Shown: positions 10,791 through 25,351 of the stretch, piece after piece
How positions within the stretch are numbered: the stretch's first letter is position 1
Layout: each line of letters starts with the position of its first letter
Assembly (NCBI GenBank): GCA_020845635.1
Contig: JADLFI010000023.1
Span: forward strand, 1-41,974
Length of the DNA: 41,974 nt
Source: Bacteroidia bacterium
GTDB lineage: Bacteria > Bacteroidota > Bacteroidia > UBA4408
Direction: 5' to 3'
Program-made: the position numbers and the translations under genes
Notes under the pieces: model-generated
Seen by the model: only the letters and a program-made list of their open reading frames with translations
What the model was told of the DNA's origin: nothing
Database searches by the model: none

Positions 10791-12887
10791 ATGAAAGTTA
10801 CTATTAAAACTATTTTAATAACGTTTTCCTTATTCTGTTTTAATCGTGTACAGGCACAGGAAATGAACATGTGCAGTACTGTTGAAGCAAACCAACGAAT
10901 GCAGAATTTACATTTTAAGGAGGTAAAAAATGCAGCCGAACAATTAGAAAACGAGACCATTCTCTTTAATCAGCAAAATCGTAGCTCAAGTGCTGTAACT
11001 TATACTATTCCCGTTGTTTTCCATATTTTGCATACCTACGGAACTGAAAATATTTCGGACGAACAAGTTGAAGATGCTGTAAATATTCTTAATCGTGATT
11101 TTAATAAACAAAATGCCGACACCGCAAATATTGTTTCCTCGTTTCAAGGGATAGCGGCTAATGTTGGAATTACTTTTAAACTGGCTAAGCTCGATCCAAA
11201 TGGAAATTGCACCAATGGAATTGATAGAATATACAGCACCTTAACAAATATTGGAGACGATGATTCAAAATTAAATCCTTGGCCACGTAATAAGTATTTG
11301 AATATATGGGTGGTAAAGAATATACTACCAGGCGGAGTAGCCGGTTATTCTATGTATCCTTCAAGTGTAGCCGGGAGTTGGGGAGCAGCAGTTGACGGAA
11401 TAATGATTTTAAATAGTTATGTTGGAAGTATTGGGACAGGCTCCTCAGGACGCAGCCGCGCTCTTACTCATGAGGTTGGTCATTGGCTAAATCTTAAACA
11501 CACTTGGGGAGACAGTAATTCTCCGGGAGTTCAAAGTAATTGTAATATGGATGATAATGTATCTGACACTCCTAATACCATAGGGTGGACATCATGTAAT
11601 TTAAATGGTACTTCTTGTGGGTCATTAGATAATGTACAGAATTATATGGAATATTCTTATTGCAGCAATATGTTTACCGAAGGACAAAAGAGTAGGGTAT
11701 TGGCAGCCTTAACTTCTAATACCGCATCGCGCAATAATTTATGGAAAAGCGCAAACCTAATAGAAACAGGTGTTGATAATACCACCATTTGTATCCCTAA
11801 GGCCGATTTTTATGCAGAATCGCCCCAAAGATGTGTAAACAGCTCTATTAGCTTTTTTGATAATTCCTCATTAGCTCAGGCTACCACATGGCAATGGTCG
11901 TTTCCGGGAGGAACACCATCAAGCTCTAACTTGCAAAATCCGGTTGTTCAATATAACACCCCGGGTGTTTATTCCGTTAGCCTTACTGTAGGTAACCAGT
12001 CCGGAACAGATAGCGTTACTAAAAATGGAATTGTAAATATACTTTCTACAACGCCTAATATTACTGTTCCCGATTTTTATGAAGGTTTTGAAACTTTAAC
12101 ACTTAACGCACCGGGAAGCAATTGGGTTGTTAACAATATAGATGGTGGACCGGCTTGGGCCATAACAAGCAATGCTTCATATACCGGAACCAAATCAATA
12201 AAATTAGCCAATATATCGAGTTCTGTTGGAAGCGTTGATGAGTTTGTTACCCCTTCCATGGATTTATCCCAATTCTCTAATCCTAAATTATATTACCGAA
12301 TAGCGTATGCTTCATTACCCGGAACTCCAGGTGTTGACTATGTGGCCAACTCTTTCCAAATATTATCTTCGGCTGATTGTGGTAAAACATGGGTAGTAAG
12401 AAAGAATTACACCGAAAACAGCTTAGCTACTGTTAATCCGCAAAACTCTGCTTTTACCCCAAACAATCCATCGCAATGGCGTCAAGACTATATAAATCTT
12501 AGTTTGATTGCCGGATTCACCAATATTCAATTTAAATTTAAATTTACTGCCGGAGAAGGGAACAATATTTATATTGATGATATTAATATTAATCAACCTA
12601 CAGCTATTTCCGAATTGGAAGAAATGAAAAATAATTTTAGAATATACCCTAACCCTTCTGACGGAGATGTTTCTGTATATTTCAGTACTATTGATAATTT
12701 TTCAAAGGTTATTGTAAAAATATACGATATAGTTGGTAAAGAAGTATATCATTCCGAAATTGATAAATTAAAAGAAGGAAATCATCAAATCAACCTTAAC
12801 CGTAACCAGCTAAACACTTCGGGTATGTATATGGTTCAAATAATGATTAATGATAATGTTTTTACCAAGAAACTTATATTAAACTAA
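10791..12887 (+). CDS. secreted M43 (pappalysin-like) zinc metalloprotease with T9SS sorting domain
   Basis: An extracellular metalloprotease of 698 residues. A signal peptide (cleavage near VQA|QE, residue 22) precedes an M43 catalytic domain (about 70-318). The zinc site HEVGHWLNLKH gives ligands H227, H231 and H237 with catalytic E228; the family Gly in HExxHxxGxxH is Asn here (N234). NYMEY supplies the Met-turn (M286). A PKD domain follows (about 336-418), then a beta-sandwich resembling MAM or choice-of-anchor J modules (about 428-600), and a type A T9SS sorting domain (about 617-698) opening with FRIYPNPSDG and ending KKLILN. The substrate is unknown. It is transcribed alone, convergent with another secreted-protein gene 24 bases away. 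Confidence 0.9.
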   Translation: MKVTIKTILITFSLFCFNRVQAQEMNMCSTVEANQRMQNLHFKEVKNAAEQLENETILFNQQNRSSSAVTYTIPVVFHILHTYGTENISDEQVEDAVNILNRDFNKQNADTANIVSSFQGIAANVGITFKLAKLDPNGNCTNGIDRIYSTLTNIGDDDSKLNPWPRNKYLNIWVVKNILPGGVAGYSMYPSSVAGSWGAAVDGIMILNSYVGSIGTGSSGRSRALTHEVGHWLNLKHTWGDSNSPGVQSNCNMDDNVSDTPNTIGWTSCNLNGTSCGSLDNVQNYMEYSYCSNMFTEGQKSRVLAALTSNTASRNNLWKSANLIETGVDNTTICIPKADFYAESPQRCVNSSISFFDNSSLAQATTWQWSFPGGTPSSSNLQNPVVQYNTPGVYSVSLTVGNQSGTDSVTKNGIVNILSTTPNITVPDFYEGFETLTLNAPGSNWVVNNIDGGPAWAITSNASYTGTKSIKLANISSSVGSVDEFVTPSMDLSQFSNPKLYYRIAYASLPGTPGVDYVANSFQILSSADCGKTWVVRKNYTENSLATVNPQNSAFTPNNPSQWRQDYINLSLIAGFTNIQFKFKFTAGEGNNIYIDDININQPTAISELEEMKNNFRIYPNPSDGDVSVYFSTIDNFSKVIVKIYDIVGKEVYHSEIDKLKEGNHQINLNRNQLNTSGMYMVQIMINDNVFTKKLILN

Positions 12888-14949: not shown

Positions 14950-15234
14950 ATGAATAAAATAAATAAAGCATCATTACTTATTTTTTTTACTTTTCTATTC
15001 ATTTCGTTTCAAGGCTTTGCCCAGAGTGATGAAGAGCCAGTAAATAAAAAATTTGAGAAAGCTCAAAAAGAACAAAAAATAAAGGAGCAAAAATCAATGC
15101 AAGAGAGAAAAAAAAGGCACGAAAAGATACAAACTCGAAAAACCCGCAAACGAATGAAGGAATCTAAGAAAAAATCAAGAAAAGTAAATGAACCGAAAAA
15201 GGAGTTTTTTTTGATTAGAATATTTAGGAAATGA
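14950..15234 (+). CDS. small, extremely basic exported protein
   Basis: I do not recognise this 94-residue protein. It begins with a clear signal peptide (residues 1-24, core LLIFFTFLFISF, cleavage near GFA|QS). The roughly 70-residue mature part is dominated by Lys, Arg, Glu and Gln, with a strong positive net charge and almost no hydrophobic residues until FFLIRIF at the very end. It could be a helical or disordered periplasmic or surface polycation. Similar Lys-rich short exported proteins are often seen in Bacteroidota genomes without an assigned role. The signal peptide and upstream TAnnTTTG boxes argue that the ORF is real. It stands alone, about 200 bases before the TonB-dependent receptor gene. 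Confidence 0.65.
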   Translation: MNKINKASLLIFFTFLFISFQGFAQSDEEPVNKKFEKAQKEQKIKEQKSMQERKKRHEKIQTRKTRKRMKESKKKSRKVNEPKKEFFLIRIFRK

Positions 15235-15360: not shown

Positions 15361-15393
15361 TTTGGATAAAAAAATAATTATTATTTATCTTTA
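15361..15393 (+). promoter_or_regulatory. probable promoter of the TonB-receptor operon
   Basis: TTTGG at 15361-15365 and TATCTTTA at 15386-15393 (one mismatch to TAnnTTTG) are 20 bases apart. The ATG at 15435 lies about 40 bases downstream. Confidence 0.4.
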
Positions 15394-15434: not shown

Positions 15435-18400
15435 ATGATAAAGAAATTTTACTTAATTTTTGCTATGGTAATCAGTTCTATTGTTGGGGTGTATGCCCAA
15501 CAAGGCGGGGCTGTAAAGGTTACCGTAATTGATGGAACAAACAAAGAAACAGTACCTTTTGCTACAGTGGTCGTCATGTCAAAAGGACAACAGGTAACCG
15601 CAGGTGCTGCTAATTTTGATGGTGAAGTTTTGCTTAAGCCCATCCAACCGGGAGTTTATGACATAAAAGTAAGCTATACCGGATACGCAGGTGTTGAAAT
15701 TACAAATGTTTCAATTATTGATGCCAAAACAGCTTACGTTACGGCAACTATCATGCCCGGAGTTGAATTAAAAGTGTTTGAAAAAGTGGAGTATGTGGTA
15801 CCTTTAATTGACCCAAATGCCAGTACCTCAAAAACAGTAACCAAAGAGAGTTACGACAAGATGGCTACCAAAAATATTAACTCGGTAGTTTCGCAATCGG
15901 CAGGTGTTGCACAAGTTGATGAGGGCAAAGAAGTAAATATTCGTGGAGGTCGTTCAAACTCAACAGAAACCTTTATTGATGGGATGCGCGTAATTGGTAC
16001 TTCAGGATTGCCACAATCCAGTATTGAGCAAATTTCTGTTATTACCGGTGGTGTTCCTGCCTCTTTTGGTGATGCTACCTCCGGAATAGTAAACATTACT
16101 ACCAGAGGGCCTCAAAGCACCTTGTTTGGAGGGATTGAGGCTATCAGTTCTGAACTAACCGATAAATATGGATACAACTTTTTAGGATTTTCATTAGGAG
16201 GGCCATTAGTTACAAAGAAAGACTCATCGGGCTTAAAAAAAACTATGTTAGGGTACTTCATTTCAGGTGAAATTTCTACAGAGCGCGATCCCGACCCATC
16301 AGCTATTGGAGTGTGGAAAGTAAAAGATGATGTATTGGCAGATTTGGAGAAGAATCCTTTAAAACCTAACCCTAATGGAAGTAATACCTTGGTACAAAGC
16401 TCACAATTTATTACCAAGGCCGATATGGAGCACGTAAAGGCTAAACAAAACACACGTTCTAACTATGTGCGTTTAAATGGAAAATTAGACTTCTCTCCTA
16501 TTGAAAACTTAAACATTACTTTGGGTGGTATGGTTGATTATAATAATCGCCACGATTATATATATGAGTATTCCCTATTTAACCCTACCAATAATGCACA
16601 GTCAATTGATAAAACCTGGAGGGTTTACGGTCGTTTACAACAAAAATTCAACTCAGCCCCTGAGGGTAAAGAAGAGAAAAGCGCTTCAAACTTAAAAAAT
16701 GCTTTTTATACCTTACAAGCATCTTATACCAAAGTAAAAAATATTGAGCAAGATGACAATCATAAAGACAATTTTTTTGATTATGGATATTTAGGGAAGT
16801 TTAAAACCTATAAGCAAAGAATTTATGAGTATAAAGCTGACCAACAAGCCTTTGCTCAAAATGGCTGGCAAGACACCTTAGTTACTTTTGCACCGGACAC
16901 TATCAGAAACCCGAATGGAGCATCTTATGCTTCAAACTTTTTTGCACTACAGGGAGATGATCCTGCAGGAGCTTATGATAATATTAACAGAATTCAGGCA
17001 AATGGTGGATTAATTAATGGCGACCGTCCTATTAACGTAAATGGATTGTGGTATAACACAGGGCGTCAGTACGGTGGATATTCCATTGAGAACAATAGCC
17101 AATTTAGAATTAGTACCAGTTTCTCAACAGATATTAAAAATCATGCTATTCAATTAGGATTTGAATACGAAAAACGCAATCAAAGTTTTTATAGTATTTC
17201 CCCAATAGGTTTATGGGGCTTGATGTACCAGTTAGCGAACAAAGCTGTTACCGACATTGATTTAACCAAACCTACATATGTCTCAAATGGGATTTACGAT
17301 ACAATAAATTACGAAAGAGGATATAATGAAAACGAAGAGTCATACTTCTCAAAAAGGGTGCGTGACGAATTCAAATTTGCCAAGAATGAGTGGATAGATA
17401 TTCATAATATGAGTCCGGAAGATTTCTCGCTTGATATGTTTAGTGCTGATGACTTGTTAAATAACGGGAATGCTTTTGTGGGATATTATGGATATGATTA
17501 TTTAGGAAACAAACAATCAAACGTAAGTTTTGAAGAATTCTTTACTAAAAAAGATGAAAAAGGAAACCTAACCCGCCCTGTAGGTTCTTTTAACCCAATA
17601 TATATGGCAGGGTATATTCAGGATAAGTTTGACTTTAAAGATTTAAAGTTTAACGTTGGATTAAGGGTGGACTATTTTGATGCTAATCAAAAGGTATTGC
17701 GCGACCCGTACTCTTTATATGCCACCCATAAGGCAGGTGATGTAACCGAACTTAATGGAGTTTCTGTAAAACATCCTTCAAATATTGGAAATGATTATGT
17801 AGTATATGTTAATAGTATAAATGACCCTACTCAAATTGTTGGATATAGAAGTGAAAACAAATGGTACAATTCAGAAGGAGTTGAGGTTAACGACCCTAAA
17901 ATATTAGCCCAAAAAACATCAAACGGGCAAATGACCCCATATTTGATTAATCCTAAAGATGGAGCCACAGACGAAACTAACACCGGAATAAGATCTACTG
18001 CTTTTGACCCTAAAAATTCATTTAAAGATTATGATGTACAGGTTAGTTTTATGCCGCGTATTGCTTTTTCATTCCCAATTTCTGATATGGCGAATTTCTT
18101 TGCCCACTATGACGTATTAACTCAGCGTCCGCCTTCTCGTTTAAGAATGAATATTTTTGACTACTACTTTATGGATATTAATACCGGAGGGGTATTAAAT
18201 AATCCAAACTTAAAACCTGAAAAAACAATTGATTATGAATTAGGATTTACACAGGTTTTAAATGAAAAACAAAATTCGGCAATAACCCTTTCGGCTTTCT
18301 ATCGCGAATTAAAAAACATGATTCAGGTTTCGCGTTTCTCGTATGCTTACCCTGTTTCCTACATGTCGTTTACAAATTTAGATATTGGAACAATAACCGG

Positions 18401-19121
18401 ATTCTCGGTTGCTTACGATTTAAGAAGAACCAACAATGTAACTCTAAATGCTAATTATACCCTTTCTTTTGCTAACGGAACAGGTTCGTCAGACGGGGAG
18501 GCTTACAGTATGATTTCAAACTCAACCCAGCCAAACTTAAGAAATACTATTCCTTTATCATACGACCAAAGACATAACATTGTTGCCAATATTGATTATA
18601 GTTACGGAAGTGGCAGCGACTACGATGGTCCTGTTATTAATGGCAAAAAAATATTCTCAGATGCGGGAGCTAACCTAACCTTCCGCGCCATGTCGGGTAC
18701 CCCATATAGTCGTCAAGGAAACATTTCGCAAGAGGGAGCCATAGGATTATCTAAAATATCAGTATTAAGAGGAAGTTTGAATGGTTCACGTTTACCATTC
18801 CAGTTCCGTTTTGATTTAAGAGTTCAAAAATCATTCCCTGTTGTATTTGGGGGTAAAGATGCTGAAAACAGTAAGAGAGGAAGCTTAGGAGTGTATTTAC
18901 AAGTACTGAATTTATTGAATGCAAAAAACATCATTAGTGTTTATCGTGCTACCGGAAACCCGGATGATGACGGCTATTTAACGGATGCAGCTTCGCAGTC
19001 GGTAATTAACAGCTTCCCAAGCCCTACAGCATTTATTGACCAATACAGTATAAAAATAAATAATCCAAGTAATTATTCTATCCCAAGAAGAATGAGATTG
19101 GGTGTAACTTTAAACTTTTAA
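15435..19121 (+). CDS. TonB-dependent outer-membrane receptor with carboxypeptidase-regulatory domain
   Basis: An outer-membrane TonB-dependent receptor of 1228 residues. A signal peptide (1-21, GVYA|QQ) is followed by a carboxypeptidase-regulatory-like Ig domain (about 24-115, with PFATVVV, DGEVLLKPI and SYTGY), then a plug domain (about 135-235, including VNIRGGRSN, IDGMRV and ITGGVPASFGDATSGIVNI) and a long 22-strand-type barrel ending in aromatic RRMRLGVTLNF. The substrate is unknown. There is no SusD-like lipoprotein next to it, so it is not a standard SusCD glycan importer. It starts a three-gene unit with a 1367-residue secreted protein (44-base gap) and a PorV/PorQ-like protein, which hints at a role linked to that exported partner. 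Confidence 0.9.
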   Translation: MIKKFYLIFAMVISSIVGVYAQQGGAVKVTVIDGTNKETVPFATVVVMSKGQQVTAGAANFDGEVLLKPIQPGVYDIKVSYTGYAGVEITNVSIIDAKTAYVTATIMPGVELKVFEKVEYVVPLIDPNASTSKTVTKESYDKMATKNINSVVSQSAGVAQVDEGKEVNIRGGRSNSTETFIDGMRVIGTSGLPQSSIEQISVITGGVPASFGDATSGIVNITTRGPQSTLFGGIEAISSELTDKYGYNFLGFSLGGPLVTKKDSSGLKKTMLGYFISGEISTERDPDPSAIGVWKVKDDVLADLEKNPLKPNPNGSNTLVQSSQFITKADMEHVKAKQNTRSNYVRLNGKLDFSPIENLNITLGGMVDYNNRHDYIYEYSLFNPTNNAQSIDKTWRVYGRLQQKFNSAPEGKEEKSASNLKNAFYTLQASYTKVKNIEQDDNHKDNFFDYGYLGKFKTYKQRIYEYKADQQAFAQNGWQDTLVTFAPDTIRNPNGASYASNFFALQGDDPAGAYDNINRIQANGGLINGDRPINVNGLWYNTGRQYGGYSIENNSQFRISTSFSTDIKNHAIQLGFEYEKRNQSFYSISPIGLWGLMYQLANKAVTDIDLTKPTYVSNGIYDTINYERGYNENEESYFSKRVRDEFKFAKNEWIDIHNMSPEDFSLDMFSADDLLNNGNAFVGYYGYDYLGNKQSNVSFEEFFTKKDEKGNLTRPVGSFNPIYMAGYIQDKFDFKDLKFNVGLRVDYFDANQKVLRDPYSLYATHKAGDVTELNGVSVKHPSNIGNDYVVYVNSINDPTQIVGYRSENKWYNSEGVEVNDPKILAQKTSNGQMTPYLINPKDGATDETNTGIRSTAFDPKNSFKDYDVQVSFMPRIAFSFPISDMANFFAHYDVLTQRPPSRLRMNIFDYYFMDINTGGVLNNPNLKPEKTIDYELGFTQVLNEKQNSAITLSAFYRELKNMIQVSRFSYAYPVSYMSFTNLDIGTITGFSVAYDLRRTNNVTLNANYTLSFANGTGSSDGEAYSMISNSTQPNLRNTIPLSYDQRHNIVANIDYSYGSGSDYDGPVINGKKIFSDAGANLTFRAMSGTPYSRQGNISQEGAIGLSKISVLRGSLNGSRLPFQFRFDLRVQKSFPVVFGGKDAENSKRGSLGVYLQVLNLLNAKNIISVYRATGNPDDDGYLTDAASQSVINSFPSPTAFIDQYSIKINNPSNYSIPRRMRLGVTLNF

Positions 19122-19165
19122 ATAAATTAAGAAAAGAGCGTTTATTGATTAAAAAAGATTATAAA

Positions 19166-22100
19166 ATGAAAAAAACGAAATCAATACTAATATTATTGCT
19201 GACTATGAGCGTATCAGTGGTTTCAGCAAAGAAGAATGTTGGTTTAATAGGTGGTAAAGTGGGCTCGGCTGAATCAACCTCAGCAGCTTGTTCGCCAGCC
19301 ACCGCAAAAGCAGACTTGAATATTAATAATGTGAGGGCTCAAATCATGAATGGAGGAGATATGTGGTGGGATCAAGGTCTTGATGTTGCACGATATGAAA
19401 TTCCAAAGGGTTCCGGGAAACATTCAAACTTCGCTTCGGCTCTTTGGATTGGTGGTTTGGATCAGGGAGGCCAGCTTAGAACAGCTTGTCAAACTTATCG
19501 CCAAAGCGGGAATGACTTTTGGCCGGGAGCTTTAGATATTACCAACGCCTCTATTGATGCCGTAAGATGTTCTAAATGGGATAAAATATATCAAATTACC
19601 CGCCAGGAAGTTGATGACTATGTAGCTTATTTAGCTTCTCCTTCAGATTTCCCAGGGTATTCAGTTCCAAACAGTATTACCAACTACCCAGGAAATGGAG
19701 ATGTGAGTTTAAACGAAGACCTTACCATGGCTCCGTTTTGGGATATCAACGGTGATGGGTTATATCGCCCGGAAGACGGAGACTATCCAAAATATGATTT
19801 GTATAATACTGCCACAATAGGTGGAGGTTGCGATAACTTTTTGTTTGGCGACCAAACTTTATGGTGGGTGTTTAACGATAAGGGAAATATTCATAGCGAA
19901 ACCGGAGGCCAGTCAATGGGTCTTGAAATTCGTGCCCAAGCTTTTGCTTTTGCTACAAATGACGAAATTAATGATATGACTTTTTATCAATACCAAGTAA
20001 TCAACAGAAGTAACCTTACCATTTCTGATACTTATTTTGCAAGTTGGAACGACCCGGACTTGGGTGACCATACTGATGATTTGATAGGTTGCGATGTTGA
20101 AAACGGATTAGGTTTTTGTTATAATGCCGATGACCAAGACGGTACAGGCTCAGGAAACAGCTACGGAAATAAACCCCCTTGTTCGGCCGTTGATTTCTTT
20201 AAAGGGCCAAAAGCCGACCCTTATTTTGTAAATGGTGTAGAGGTTGACAGACCGGCCAGTCAAACATTTAGTGGCTCAGGATACGGAGATGGTATTGTAG
20301 GTAACGAAACCTTAGGAATGGAGTACTTTATGGTTTATAAAAATGATTGGTCAGTTCAAGGAAATCCTTCGCAGGCTACACATTTTTATAATTATTTACA
20401 GTCAAAGTGGAAAGATGGAACTCCGCTTACCTATGGAGCTTCAGGCATTGGAGGTACCACTCCTTGTAGATTTGCCTTTCCTTGGACCTCAGATCCAACT
20501 AATGGGAATGTTAATTGGGAAGCCACAGAACAAGCCGATTGGCGTTTTATACACTCTGCCGGCCCATTTTCATTAAAACCGGGAGCCGTAAATTATGTAA
20601 CTACCGGTGCAGTGTGGGCACAAGCTCAAACAGGAGGAGCAAAAGCTTCTGTAGATTTAGTGAGAATAGCCGACATTAAAGCTCAAGCCTTATTTGATAA
20701 CTGCTTTAAAGTGTTAGAAGGTCCTCGCGCTCCGGATTTAACTATTCAGGAATTAAACAAAGAGTTAATTTTATATTTAACCAATCCTACTGTAACTACT
20801 TTTAATAACAGATACGAGCGTTATGAGGAGTTAGACCCGTTAATTCCTGCCTTACCCGGATACGACAGAACATATAATTTTGAAGGGTATTTAATATATC
20901 AATTAAAGGATGCTAGTGTTACAGTTTCTGAGGCCGATTTAAGTGATATAAATAAAGCTCGACTTGTGGCACAATGCGATGTTAATAATGAATATGGACA
21001 ATTAACTAACTTTAGGTTTGATCCCGCCATGAATTCTAATGTTCCTGTATTGAAGAATCCTACTATTGACGGATATAATAAAGGGATAAAACATTCTTTC
21101 AGAATAAAAGAAGATAAATTTGCTTCAGGGGTAGATAAGAGATTGGTTAACCATAAAACTTATTACTATGTAGCAATAGCTTATGGAGCTAATAACTTTA
21201 AGACTTATAACCAAACAGATCCTTCTGCCTATGATGGTCAAAAAACCCCATATATTTCAGGGGCAAAAAACTCTAAGGGTCAAAGTGTTGCACCGGTTGC
21301 CGGAATACCACATATTACTGCACCTGAAGAAGGGGGAACAAATTTACAGAGCAGCTACGGAGATGGTCCAAAAATTAAAAGATTAGAAGGTCAAGGTAGT
21401 GGATACCAAAACCTAGACTTAACTGAAGAAACCGAGAAAGAAATTTTAGCTAAAGGGAAAGTAGAGCAATTGGAATATAAAAACGGCAAAGGCCCTATTG
21501 ATATTCGTGTTATAGACCCGTTAAATGTACCGGAAGGTGAGTTTCAATTAAAATTTGTAAGTAGAGTTTTAGTTCCTAAACAACAATTATTGACAGGTTC
21601 AATTGATTCTTTGGCGGCAACAGACCCTGCTATTACGGAATATGTTTATGCTTATGTTCCATTGAACTCTGACATTTTTGCAGTACAAGGAGTAACATCA
21701 GGAAACAAGTATAATATCAAAAGAGTAAAAAATATTTTGACAGCTGTTGACACCGCTGCTTGGGTTTTAACCAATTTAACAACCAAAGACTCAGTTGTTT
21801 CAGATACTTGTATAAAAATAGAGAACGAACAATTAATTTTAGATTGGGGCTTATCTGTTAATATTAAAAAGGGCGTTGCTCCGGGAGTGGATATGAATAA
21901 TAATCAAAACGGATTAGTGTATAGTTCTTGGGAAGAATCCGACCCTACTAAACAATGGTTAATAGGTTTTCCTGACCAAGAAGGGCAATGGGCATTAAAC
22001 TGGATACGTTCAGGTACACAAACATATCCTAATCCTATACCCGGTCCGCCATCGTTTAGCGGAAACGACTATGTAGGAGTAGATGATGGGCAATATTTTG

Positions 22101-23269
22101 AGGGAGTGTTAGAAGGAATGTTTGCCCCTTATATACTTACCTCAAATGAGTGGAATGGAGTGTCATGGGGTAATTCTTATTTTAACCCTACAGGTCGCAA
22201 AAGAGATATATTACGTAATTTAAGAAGTGTTGATATTGTAATCACAAAAGATAAAGACAAGTGGACAAGATGCCCTGTACTTGAAATGCAAGACGACCCT
22301 AACTTAGCTGAAGGAGGTGCAGCAAAGTTTGATTTAAGAAAATCTCCATCGCGCGATAAAGATGGTAATGTTGACGGTTCAGGCACTAATGGTATGGGTT
22401 GGTTCCCCGGGTATGCTATCAATGTTGAAACCGGTGAACGTTTAAATATGGCTTTTGGGGAAGATTCATGGCTTACCGGAGATAACGGACGCGATATGAT
22501 TTGGAATCCTAGCTCAAAATTCCTTGACAGAAACACTGATGCCATATCTACAGGAGTAATTTTTGGAGGCAAGCACTTTATTTATGTATTCGGGCACTCA
22601 GGAAATACCTCTAATGATATGCCGGCATACGATGAAGGTAATTTTATTTATACAAAATTAATGGCCAACCAAGTAGCCGAAAAACAACGTGTATTTAAAG
22701 ACTGTATGTGGGCAGGTATTCCAATATTGGCAGAAGGCACCGAGTTTTTAGGAACAGATGTTAGGTTAAAGATAAGGGTAGCTCGACCATACAGCAGATA
22801 TTTTGCAGGAAACGCTATAAGTGGTCTTAACTACGATCCGGATGCGCCAAAAGTTGACCCTTCAGTGGCTAAGAATGGCAATTTCCCACTATATTCATTT
22901 GGCACAGGAGATATTGCAACGCTAAAAAACAAAACAGATGTTGCAAAGAGTGCATTGGATATAATTAATATTGTTCCAAATCCGTACTTTGCTTACTCTG
23001 CTTACGAAGCATCAACCTTAGATAACATAGCAAAGATTACCAACTTGCCTCAAAACTGTGTAATCAGTATTTATACCCTTAATGGAACATTAATAAGAAA
23101 ATATCAGAAAGATGATCCAAAGAGTTCTTTAGATTGGGATTTAAAAAATCAAAAGAATATTCCAATATCCAGTGGCATATATTTGATACATGTAAATGTA
23201 CCGGGTGTGGGCGAAAAGGTATTGAAGTTCTTTGCTACCATGAGACCAATAGATTTAGATCAATTTTAA
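19166..23269 (+). CDS. very large secreted protein with T9SS-like C-terminal domain, in TonB-receptor/PorV-like operon
   Basis: A 1367-residue exported protein of unknown function. I chose the ATG at 19166, which gives a compact signal peptide (MKKTKSILILLLTMSVSVVS, cleavage near residue 21); the frame is also open to a TTG at 19145. The N-terminal region (about 45-130) has NNVRAQIMNGGDMWWDQG and SALWIGGLDQGGQLR, a pattern I have seen in uncharacterised Bacteroidota exoproteins. An Asp-rich loop DINGDGLYRPEDGDYP near residue 190 could bind calcium. The last 100 residues (from about 1269, VPNPYFAYSA, later GIYLIHV and KVLKFFATMRP) resemble a T9SS or FlgD-like Ig domain, with an unusual extra tail PIDLDQF. 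Its PorV-like neighbour begins 21 bases after the stop. Confidence 0.75.
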   Translation: MKKTKSILILLLTMSVSVVSAKKNVGLIGGKVGSAESTSAACSPATAKADLNINNVRAQIMNGGDMWWDQGLDVARYEIPKGSGKHSNFASALWIGGLDQGGQLRTACQTYRQSGNDFWPGALDITNASIDAVRCSKWDKIYQITRQEVDDYVAYLASPSDFPGYSVPNSITNYPGNGDVSLNEDLTMAPFWDINGDGLYRPEDGDYPKYDLYNTATIGGGCDNFLFGDQTLWWVFNDKGNIHSETGGQSMGLEIRAQAFAFATNDEINDMTFYQYQVINRSNLTISDTYFASWNDPDLGDHTDDLIGCDVENGLGFCYNADDQDGTGSGNSYGNKPPCSAVDFFKGPKADPYFVNGVEVDRPASQTFSGSGYGDGIVGNETLGMEYFMVYKNDWSVQGNPSQATHFYNYLQSKWKDGTPLTYGASGIGGTTPCRFAFPWTSDPTNGNVNWEATEQADWRFIHSAGPFSLKPGAVNYVTTGAVWAQAQTGGAKASVDLVRIADIKAQALFDNCFKVLEGPRAPDLTIQELNKELILYLTNPTVTTFNNRYERYEELDPLIPALPGYDRTYNFEGYLIYQLKDASVTVSEADLSDINKARLVAQCDVNNEYGQLTNFRFDPAMNSNVPVLKNPTIDGYNKGIKHSFRIKEDKFASGVDKRLVNHKTYYYVAIAYGANNFKTYNQTDPSAYDGQKTPYISGAKNSKGQSVAPVAGIPHITAPEEGGTNLQSSYGDGPKIKRLEGQGSGYQNLDLTEETEKEILAKGKVEQLEYKNGKGPIDIRVIDPLNVPEGEFQLKFVSRVLVPKQQLLTGSIDSLAATDPAITEYVYAYVPLNSDIFAVQGVTSGNKYNIKRVKNILTAVDTAAWVLTNLTTKDSVVSDTCIKIENEQLILDWGLSVNIKKGVAPGVDMNNNQNGLVYSSWEESDPTKQWLIGFPDQEGQWALNWIRSGTQTYPNPIPGPPSFSGNDYVGVDDGQYFEGVLEGMFAPYILTSNEWNGVSWGNSYFNPTGRKRDILRNLRSVDIVITKDKDKWTRCPVLEMQDDPNLAEGGAAKFDLRKSPSRDKDGNVDGSGTNGMGWFPGYAINVETGERLNMAFGEDSWLTGDNGRDMIWNPSSKFLDRNTDAISTGVIFGGKHFIYVFGHSGNTSNDMPAYDEGNFIYTKLMANQVAEKQRVFKDCMWAGIPILAEGTEFLGTDVRLKIRVARPYSRYFAGNAISGLNYDPDAPKVDPSVAKNGNFPLYSFGTGDIATLKNKTDVAKSALDIINIVPNPYFAYSAYEASTLDNIAKITNLPQNCVISIYTLNGTLIRKYQKDDPKSSLDWDLKNQKNIPISSGIYLIHVNVPGVGEKVLKFFATMRPIDLDQF

Positions 23270-23290
23270 TATAATAAACCAAGAATTGTT

Positions 23291-24373
23291 ATGCGTTTAA
23301 ACAATCTTTCAAAGATAAGCACCATTATAGCCGGAGTTTTTTTGACGGGCTTAGTAAATGCCGGAAATCCGGATCGTGCAGGACAAGCAGGAGGAACCCA
23401 ATTACTCATTAATCCCTTTGTAAAAAGTTCAGGATTTGGGAGTGCCAATTCTTCTTGTGTTTCGGGGCTTGAGGCACAGTTTTTAAATGTTGCCGGGATA
23501 GCTCATACCGAAAAAACAGAAATATTGGTGTCGAGAACCAATTGGTTGGTAGGCTCAGGAATTAATATTAATTCTTTTGGGTTTAGTCAAAAACTTGGTA
23601 GTTCAAGTGCCTTGGCTTTGGGTGTAATGTCTATGGATTTTGGTAATATTAATGTTACTACCGTAGAACAACCAGAAGGAAACCTTGGAACATTTAAACC
23701 CCAGTTCTTAAATCTTAATTTAAGCTATGCTAAGGAGTTTTCGAATAGTATTTTTGGAGGCTTTAATGTTAAAGTTTTATCTGAAAACATAGCTAATTTA
23801 AAAGCTACAGGAGTTTGCTTTGATGGTGGTATTCAATACGTTACCAGCTTTGGGAAAGACAAAGAATTAAAGCGTAAAAATGTACATTTTGGAATAGCTT
23901 TGAAAAATGTTGGTCCTCAAATGAGATATCAAGGTGATGGGATGTCAATAAAGGCTAATTTGATTGCAACAGGAGCTGCTCAAACGTTAGAATTCAGATC
24001 ACAAGAGTTTGATTTACCCTCATTGTTAAATATTGGAATGGCTTATGATTATTATTTAAGCGATGAAAACGATAACCAAAGAATTACAGCCGCATTTAAC
24101 TTTACTTCAAATTCATTTACACAAGACCAATTTAATTTAGGTTTTGAATATGGCTTTAAGCAATTGTTTATGATTCGTGCGGGTATGGTTTATGAAAAAG
24201 GTTTATTTAATGCTGAAAAAAGAACAACAGCTTTAACCGGCCCAACCGCAGGCTTCTCGGCCTATTTGCCTTTGGGTCGCGCAAGTACTCGTAAGCTAGG
24301 TATAGACTATGCTTACCGTACAACAAATCCTTTTGGGGGTGTTCACTCAATAGGTTTGAAATTAAAATTATAA
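23291..24373 (+). CDS. PorV/PorQ family outer-membrane protein
   Basis: A 360-residue beta-barrel protein of the PorV/PorQ (FadL-like) group. A signal peptide (1-24, GLVNA|GN) precedes QAGGTQLLINPFVKSSGFGSAN, which matches the start of the family where PorV proteins carry the AGxxFLxIGxxARxxGMG pattern. GLEAQFLNVAGIAH matches the NPAG/INIAGL region. Alternating strands end in GVHSIGLKLKL. In T9SS, PorV shuttles cargo from the SprA translocon to the PorU attachment complex, and PorQ/PorZ act at the cell surface. Here it is the third gene after a receptor and a large CTD-bearing exoprotein, so a dedicated carrier for that product is possible. That role is inference; the family call is moderately firm. 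Confidence 0.75.
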   Translation: MRLNNLSKISTIIAGVFLTGLVNAGNPDRAGQAGGTQLLINPFVKSSGFGSANSSCVSGLEAQFLNVAGIAHTEKTEILVSRTNWLVGSGININSFGFSQKLGSSSALALGVMSMDFGNINVTTVEQPEGNLGTFKPQFLNLNLSYAKEFSNSIFGGFNVKVLSENIANLKATGVCFDGGIQYVTSFGKDKELKRKNVHFGIALKNVGPQMRYQGDGMSIKANLIATGAAQTLEFRSQEFDLPSLLNIGMAYDYYLSDENDNQRITAAFNFTSNSFTQDQFNLGFEYGFKQLFMIRAGMVYEKGLFNAEKRTTALTGPTAGFSAYLPLGRASTRKLGIDYAYRTTNPFGGVHSIGLKLKL

Positions 24374-24407
24374 TTCATATATTTGTAAAATAATTTTTAC
24401 TTTAAAG

Positions 24408-24437
24408 GGGGTCTCGATATTTATTTATCGGGATTCC
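24408..24437 (+). terminator. intrinsic terminator after the PorV-like gene
   Basis: A 12-base stem including G:T pairs (24408-24419 with 24426-24437) closes a 6-base loop and is followed by a T-rich run. It separates the TonB/PorV-like operon from greA. Confidence 0.65.
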
Positions 24438-24471
24438 TTTATTTTTTGTATAATCATAAAACACATTAGAT

Positions 24472-24948
24472 ATGTCACAAATTACTTATGTAACCGAAGA
24501 AGGACTAAAGAAAATGAAAGAAGAGCTTAATCGTCTTAAAACAATTGAAAGACCAAGCATTTCGAATCAAATTGCTGAAGCTCGGGACAAAGGCGACTTG
24601 TCGGAAAATGCAGAATATGATGCCGCTAAAGAAGCACAAGGGCTGCTAGAATTAAAGATTTCAAAGTTAGAAGACGCAGTAAGCAATGCCAGAGTAATAG
24701 ACGAAAGTAAGCTAGATGCTGAAAAGATCTTAATTTTGAGTACCGTTAAGCTGAAAAATATGGTCAACAAGACTATACAAACCTATACGCTTGTTCCGGA
24801 ACAGGAGGCTAATTTAAAAGAAGGCAAAATTTCGGTTGATTCACCAGTGGGGAAAGGCTTGTTAGGTAAAAAACCCGGAGAGGTAGCCGAAATTAAAGTA
24901 CCTTCGGGTATGGTTTTAAAATTCGAAATTTTGGAAATTAGCAGATAG
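24472..24948 (+). CDS. greA: transcription elongation factor GreA
   Basis: A cytosolic factor that enters the RNA polymerase secondary channel and stimulates cleavage of backtracked transcripts. The 158-residue length is standard. The N-terminal antiparallel coiled coil (about 1-75) carries the acidic tip motif DLSENAEYDAAK, whose D and E residues coordinate the catalytic magnesium. The C-terminal FKBP-like domain (about 80-158) contains YTLVPEQEA, SPVGKGLLGKKPGE and the final ILEISR. It begins a short unit, with the HIT gene starting 4 bases after its stop. Confidence 0.95.
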   Translation: MSQITYVTEEGLKKMKEELNRLKTIERPSISNQIAEARDKGDLSENAEYDAAKEAQGLLELKISKLEDAVSNARVIDESKLDAEKILILSTVKLKNMVNKTIQTYTLVPEQEANLKEGKISVDSPVGKGLLGKKPGEVAEIKVPSGMVLKFEILEISR

Positions 24949-24952
24949 TAAG

Positions 24953-25351
24953 ATGGCCACCATTTTTACACAAATTATTAAAGGAGAAATACCCTGCCAT
25001 AAAATAGCAGAGAATGATAGATTTTTTGCTTTCTTGGACATTTTTCCTTTAAGACATGGGCATACCTTAGTTATACCCAAAACAGAGGTTGATTACATTT
25101 TTGATATGGATAAGCAAGAGTATAAAGAATTGATGGCTTTTGCTCAAACAATTTCAAAAGCAATAAAAATAGCCTTTCCTTGTAAAAAGGTAGGAATGAG
25201 CGTTGTTGGACTTGAAGTGCCACATGCTCATATACATTTAATTCCATTAAATACGGTTTCAGATATGAATTTTAATGCTGAAAAACTAAAACCGAGTAAT
25301 GAAGAACTGGCTAAGCATGCCGAAATGATAAGAATGTATTTACAACTATAA
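24953..25351 (+). CDS. HIT family nucleotide-binding hydrolase
   Basis: A small cytosolic histidine-triad protein, 132 residues, of the HINT/Fhit-like group that hydrolyses nucleoside phosphoramidates or dinucleoside polyphosphates; the true substrate is not known. FTQIIKGEIPCHKI at the start, HGHTLVIPK, and the histidine triad HAHIHLIPL (H91, H93, H95) are diagnostic; H93 is the expected nucleophile. The gene is coupled to greA (4-base gap) and followed by aroQ after 39 bases. The greA-HIT adjacency suggests co-transcription rather than a shared pathway. Confidence 0.92.
   Translation: MATIFTQIIKGEIPCHKIAENDRFFAFLDIFPLRHGHTLVIPKTEVDYIFDMDKQEYKELMAFAQTISKAIKIAFPCKKVGMSVVGLEVPHAHIHLIPLNTVSDMNFNAEKLKPSNEELAKHAEMIRMYLQL

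Follow-up and report, generated by a model that had tools for sequence, protein, structure and literature searches.

The locus examined here raises the question of what a TonB-dependent receptor, a very large exoprotein, and a PorV-like barrel might do together when their genes follow one another on the same strand. It lies in a 41,974-nucleotide stretch of a Bacteroidia genome (assembly GCA_020845635.1, contig JADLFI010000023.1), which is referred to here as the window. An earlier sequence-only reading had described the three genes as a single unit whose members lie 44 and 21 bases apart and which ends in a terminator at 24408-24437. The ORF positions confirmed this layout, with 44 bases between the receptor gene (TBDR) and the exoprotein gene (EXO) and 21 bases between EXO and the barrel gene (PORV), and a hairpin followed by T was found at 24405-24440. 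The features of the locus are as follows:

15361..15393, + strand: candidate promoter, TTTG-N21-TATCTTTA, a single pattern match
15435..19121, + strand: TBDR, TonB-dependent receptor, ORF of 1228 aa
19166..23269, + strand: EXO, exoprotein, 1367 aa from the ATG
19289..20713, + strand: EXO N domain, residues ~42-516, predicted fold
22967..23266, + strand: EXO C-terminal domain, type A-like T9SS signal, ~100 residues
23291..24373, + strand: PORV, PorV/PorQ-family FadL-type barrel, 360 aa
24405..24440, + strand: intrinsic-terminator-like hairpin closing the unit, 15 pairs, then T
24472..25351, + strand: greA and HIT-family genes, conserved downstream neighbours in the class, outside the unit

The single match at 15361..15393 presumably resembles the Bacteroidota promoter consensus, and the EXO reading frame is also open from a TTG at 19145, upstream of the ATG. 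As judged by eye, TBDR, EXO, and PORV all carry a Sec-type signal peptide. Just upstream, the window encodes a metalloprotease of the M43 type that combines PKD domains with a clear T9SS type A signal (10791-12887), as well as a small, very lysine-rich exported protein before the unit (14950-15234). The closest relatives (L003, L004, and L035) have this small protein upstream too, and it is matched weakly in L007 and L087.

Conserved co-occurrence and gene order had been named in the sequence-only reading as the test of its proposal, and both were borne out. A scan of genome contigs with EXO as the query yielded 43 relatives. The order TBDR-EXO-PORV on one strand was present at 35/35 full-family loci of the class with a contig running past EXO and at 18 complete loci of 20 from other genera and classes, with the other two being cut by contig ends, and nearly all of the distant loci also have this order. 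EXO itself was found in 208/253 good genomes of the class, mostly as one or two full-length copies, and in 182/371 good genomes sampled from the phylum, although these counts ignore phylogeny and the two rates are not directly comparable because the samples draw on different lineages. The module spans the phylum: the majority of the class genomes sampled have it, as do many genomes outside of the class. Within the class, greA lies downstream of the unit at 32 of the 34 loci that are long enough, plus four more, and is mostly followed by the HIT gene. The flanks differ in other classes, with other housekeeping genes at the closest loci. TPR and GWxTD-domain proteins are frequent beside the triples of other classes (L088-L102).

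TBDR is composed of a signal peptide, a carboxypeptidase-regulatory-like N domain (CarboxypepD_reg), a Plug domain (2.1e-8), and a barrel, with the plug and barrel being retained across the family, and its nearest solved relatives by sequence profile are Cir-type receptors. TBDR had no match to the SusC/RagA model TIGR04056 at E 0.1 and a Pfam search of EXO for SusD returned no match, so we rejected membership of the unit in the SusC/SusD systems. The Plug domain and the neighbour lacking a SusD match also agree with the earlier description of a receptor without SusD that precedes a large exported protein. Receptor and barrel genes were also encountered as pairs. The same genome encodes a 775-aa TBDR followed by a 281-aa PorV-family barrel without an exoprotein near sprA (L126, contig C45, 4776-8011), and at L131:10329-13999 a TBDR directly precedes PORV with no EXO between them and a stand-alone N-domain cargo nearby.

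EXO begins with a signal peptide and an N domain (residues ~42-516), followed by a mostly beta middle region and a C-terminal beta-sandwich domain (residues 1268-1367). The modelled N domain resembles the beta-supersandwich found at the N terminus of GH94, GH116, and related enzymes (main group: Z 16-19 over ~250 residues, rmsd 3.0-4.2, 6-11% identity). As for the catalytic (alpha/alpha)6 barrel of GH94/GH116-type enzymes, the model of the EXO body (residues 22-1221; mean pLDDT 77.7, pTM 0.59) contains mainly strands and short helices beyond residue 516. It should be noted that the N-domain alignment was a second look at Foldseek's own matches using a predicted model, and that such an apparently common fold is no demonstration of function. 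A solved-structure search with the EXO profile returned PorU alone, at E 0.87. The C-terminal end had been called CTD-like, and its match to the type A model TIGR04183 is borderline, at 19.4 bits in the protein scan and 24.1 bits in the genome scan versus a cut-off of 23. Its best NCBIfam match is PorZ, and within the class the family end MRPxDLDxF is conserved to the last residue. The assignment of PORV as a PorV/PorQ-type barrel was corroborated by NCBIfam, as it is a member of the PorV/PorQ family NF033709 (136.1 bits versus a cut-off of 90), which is matched by 28/28 homologues as well. PORV is far below the equivalog cut-offs for PorV (58/250 bits), PorQ (68/220), and PorV2 (37/325), and the genome encodes its own PorV, PorQ, and PorV2 elsewhere, with PorV beside PorU. 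The PorP/SprF model TIGR03519 had no match to the window PORV at E 0.01 and was matched weakly by 10/28 PORV homologues.

The presence of PORV next door follows the type of C-terminal domain found in EXO relatives. PORV adjoined 69/73 loci with an EXO-type C-terminal domain and enough flank, versus 0/22 loci that share the EXO N domain yet end in the ordinary signal of type A cargo (Fisher 7e-18, which ignores both phylogeny and the way the loci were chosen). Similarly, TBDR was next door at 50/54 loci with the EXO-type domain versus 2/21 with an ordinary signal. The latter two are not true exceptions because both are frame-broken EXO pieces (L005 and L043), which also make up 2 of the 22 ordinary-signal loci in the PORV count. 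At these loci (L005:7974-11900 and L043:7905-11910), the EXO genes are split over two frames and are either pseudogenes or assembly errors. A single MAG contains both a triple and a stand-alone EXO relative (L029 and L041). EXO length was rejected as the cause of the PORV linkage, since the tandem relatives at L142, which have 1137-1192 residues and ordinary signals, lack PORV. Between two and four N-domain proteins that end in ordinary type A signals are arrayed in tandem at L139, L140, and L142.

PORV adjacency is not strictly needed, however, because both orphan EXOs and orphan C-terminal-domain proteins exist. Two-copy genomes, which were obtained afterwards and stand outside the 69/73 and 0/22 counts, have one triple plus one orphan EXO with the same C-terminal domain, and a second EXO is therefore possible without its own barrel. 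Full-length orphans are found at L145, L147, L149, L150, L153, L155, L156, L158, L160, and L143:11639-15721. In the tree, the orphan was sister to the operon copy in 9 of the 10 genomes for which both copies were fetched, which we read as a likely sign of repeated duplication or gene conversion. The C-terminal domains of the orphans are conserved as body divergence predicts and no better, and concerted conservation of this domain between operon and orphan EXO was rejected, as it did not exceed the trend seen among orthologs (mean residual 0.3). The orphan C-terminal-domain proteins are ~700 aa in length (L133:6029-8137 and L134:5630-7747) and have no TBDR or PORV nearby; both genomes encode another EXO relative elsewhere.

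The three genes have also diversified together. Across 16 distant or paralogous triples, the distances of PORV, TBDR, the EXO body, and the EXO C-terminal domain were correlated (r 0.77-0.93, with r 0.93 for TBDR and the EXO body), and the permutation P for each correlation was at its floor of 0.0002. Six of these 16 triples are found in one genome, where every triple has a separate PORV and TBDR that are only ~28-43% identical to those of the others. Correlated distances would fit dedicated partners, and whole-operon duplication alone would give the same result. The earlier claim that the PorV paralogue serves the adjacent exoprotein gained support from the linkage to C-terminal-domain type, the co-diversification, and the six pairs, all of which bear on it indirectly. 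We also modelled the EXO C-terminal domain and PORV as one fused chain by reading through the EXO stop, with its TAA read as glycine. Both parts folded (mean pLDDT 80, pTM 0.76), and the conserved C-terminal tail of EXO was of low confidence. This poorly modelled tail might thread into the PORV barrel.

The distribution of the unit relates it to the T9SS. SprA, the type IX translocon, was present in 38/38 EXO carriers versus 15/20 non-carriers (Fisher 0.003). EXO thus goes with the T9SS, but the presence of SprA in 15 of 20 genomes without EXO led us to reject the unit as a core T9SS component. According to published T9SS work, PorV serves every type A cargo, and barrels of their own are described for type B cargo, with PorP/SprF (PMC12618676, PMC9143113). 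In P. gingivalis, cleaved CTDs are 67-88 residues long, while the uncleaved CTDs of PorZ and PorU have 96 and 108 residues, respectively (PMC11285876). At ~100 residues, the EXO C-terminal domain is within the uncleaved range and outside of the cleaved one, and by analogy it probably remains uncleaved. Furthermore, PorV and PorQ serve as the surface anchors of PorU and PorZ, respectively (PMC5562754). It is the domain length, the PorZ match, and this precedent that lead us to propose that PORV holds EXO.

The explanation that we favor, and to which we would give an even chance, is that EXO is exported by the T9SS and anchored to the surface by PORV, with TBDR working in uptake in the manner of the SusCD systems. 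The whole operon would then yield one outer-membrane complex. PORV, made from the next gene, would collect EXO as PorV does ordinary cargo, but would then stay bound and anchor it, just as PorU is anchored by PorV and PorZ by PorQ, with the C-terminal domain probably left uncut. Held at the surface beside the neighbouring TBDR, EXO would capture or gate the substrate of the receptor. TBDR and EXO would in this way correspond to SusC and SusD, except that the partner would be made by the T9SS rather than by lipoprotein export. This is in line with the sequence-only reading, which had TBDR importing, or being gated by, something bound by EXO; we likewise infer such a role, for which the correlated distances of TBDR and the EXO body are circumstantial support. 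Our best guess for the ligand is a glycan or a glycan-derived molecule, which is the weakest step of the proposal because the near-core version of the class sits among housekeeping genes; the window's version may have a different ligand.

Several circumstantial lines point toward uptake, namely the scarcity of SusD among EXO carriers, the carbohydrate-related neighbours, and an alginate locus. SusD was missing in 24/38 EXO carriers, and within the class the median SusD count was 0 in carriers versus 18 in non-carriers, a comparison that is confounded by lineage, such that the scarcity may be a lineage or lifestyle effect. Among the proteins encoded beside distant triples are LacI regulators, GH3, GH10, GH130, glycoamylase-like and CBM9 proteins, and solute-binding proteins. 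Closer triples have no carbohydrate neighbours among the families listed, with housekeeping genes at the closest loci of other classes. PUL membership was not supported for the window's own version, as its neighbours and those of its near relatives are housekeeping genes. For the alginate locus of Rhodothermus marinus, Figure 2 of one study gives the annotations TonB receptor, T9SS type A sorting protein, and PorV/PorQ family protein, in this order and without comment (PMC9530828).

The strongest competitor, which we regard as a serious minority possibility, retains the EXO-PORV-TBDR surface complex but assigns it to adhesion, cell-surface structure, or signalling instead of import, with TBDR acting as a signal transducer or a plugged anchor. 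Such a role would suit a near-core unit that lies among housekeeping genes and mostly occurs once or twice, as well as the very large size and many beta strands of EXO, and the type B cargo bound by dedicated barrels are adhesins, either known or predicted (PMC12618676). It is harder to reconcile with the plug and barrel retained in the TBDR family, with the LacI regulators, glycoside hydrolases, and solute-binding proteins adjoining distant triples, or with the SusD-poor genomes of EXO carriers. Less probable still, and in our view rather unlikely, is that PORV is a transient shuttle which delivers EXO to PorU-PorV-PorQ-PorZ, where the domain would be cut and EXO either linked to LPS or released. 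The borderline type A character of the domain is compatible with this, and the genome does have PorU, PorV, PorQ, and PorV2 together with ~120 ordinary cargo signals. However, ordinary cargo manage without a dedicated barrel, and none is found beside the EXO relatives with ordinary signals; moreover, the domain has the length of uncleaved CTDs and is conserved up to its last residue, and six divergent PORV copies in one genome would be superfluous for a shared shuttle.

PORV could also be a channel of the FadL type that passes a small hydrophobic molecule and works alongside TBDR, with EXO being an independent partner exported by the general PorV, but this seems improbable. The predicted PORV barrel does have a FadL fold, and FadL (Z 22-27) and TodX-type channels come after PorV in its fold list. 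Yet the best match of PORV is PorV by sequence, fold, and family (for the fold, PorV 6h3i_F with Z 30.0, 290 residues aligned, 3.5 A), and the linkage of PORV follows the C-terminal-domain type of EXO. Finally, it is very improbable that the three genes are simply co-transcribed and passed on together at one chromosomal site while their products do not interact physically, because even though the block through greA-HIT is conserved whole in the class, the trio survives a change of flanks and is retained in many diverged paralogous copies.

A literature search of open-licence PMC papers found no description of the TBDR-EXO-PORV module. Its single parts are already known, as type B barrels, PorV shuttling, and BamG-BamH have been described; what we did not find described is a type A-like cargo combined with both a PorV-family barrel of its own and a TonB receptor on a phylum-wide scale. 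The PorU-PorV and PorZ-PorQ pairs are similar in that the T9SS exports a protein whose type A-like domain stays uncleaved and which a PorV/PorQ-family barrel anchors (PMC5562754, PMC11285876), and porU and porV are likewise adjacent in this genome. However, EXO is neither PorU nor PorZ, PORV forms a distinct branch of its family, the EXO operon includes a TonB receptor, and the EXO set is missing from many SprA genomes. Type B cargo of PorP/SprF proteins, such as SprB-SprF and others, similarly have the cargo gene directly before its own FadL-family barrel gene, and in Flavobacterium orphan type B cargo share one barrel (PMC12618676). EXO differs from them in its type A-like domain, its PorV-family barrel, and the added TBDR. 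In BamG-BamH of the Bacteroidota BAM, an extracellular protein is also anchored by a FadL-type barrel, but BamH is a surface lipoprotein and the role is outer-membrane protein assembly (PMC12611786). The tonB-hypA-hypB genes of Rhodothermus marinus have the same order of annotations; hypA, at 2181 nt, is shorter than EXO, and the comparison is one of annotation only (PMC9530828). With SusC/SusD (RagA/RagB), the unit shares a TonB receptor with a carboxypeptidase-regulatory-like N domain beside a surface partner, and its distant triples lie in carbohydrate loci. It differs in having no SusD, in a TBDR outside of the SusC/RagA models, and in a partner with a T9SS signal and its own barrel. The module may be an equivalent of the SusC/SusD importers of nutrients. 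If so, it would constitute a third T9SS arrangement beyond PorV-only type A and barrel-paired type B cargo, one that joins protein secretion to nutrient uptake and provides a route for large-molecule uptake in Bacteroidota with few or no SusCD pairs.
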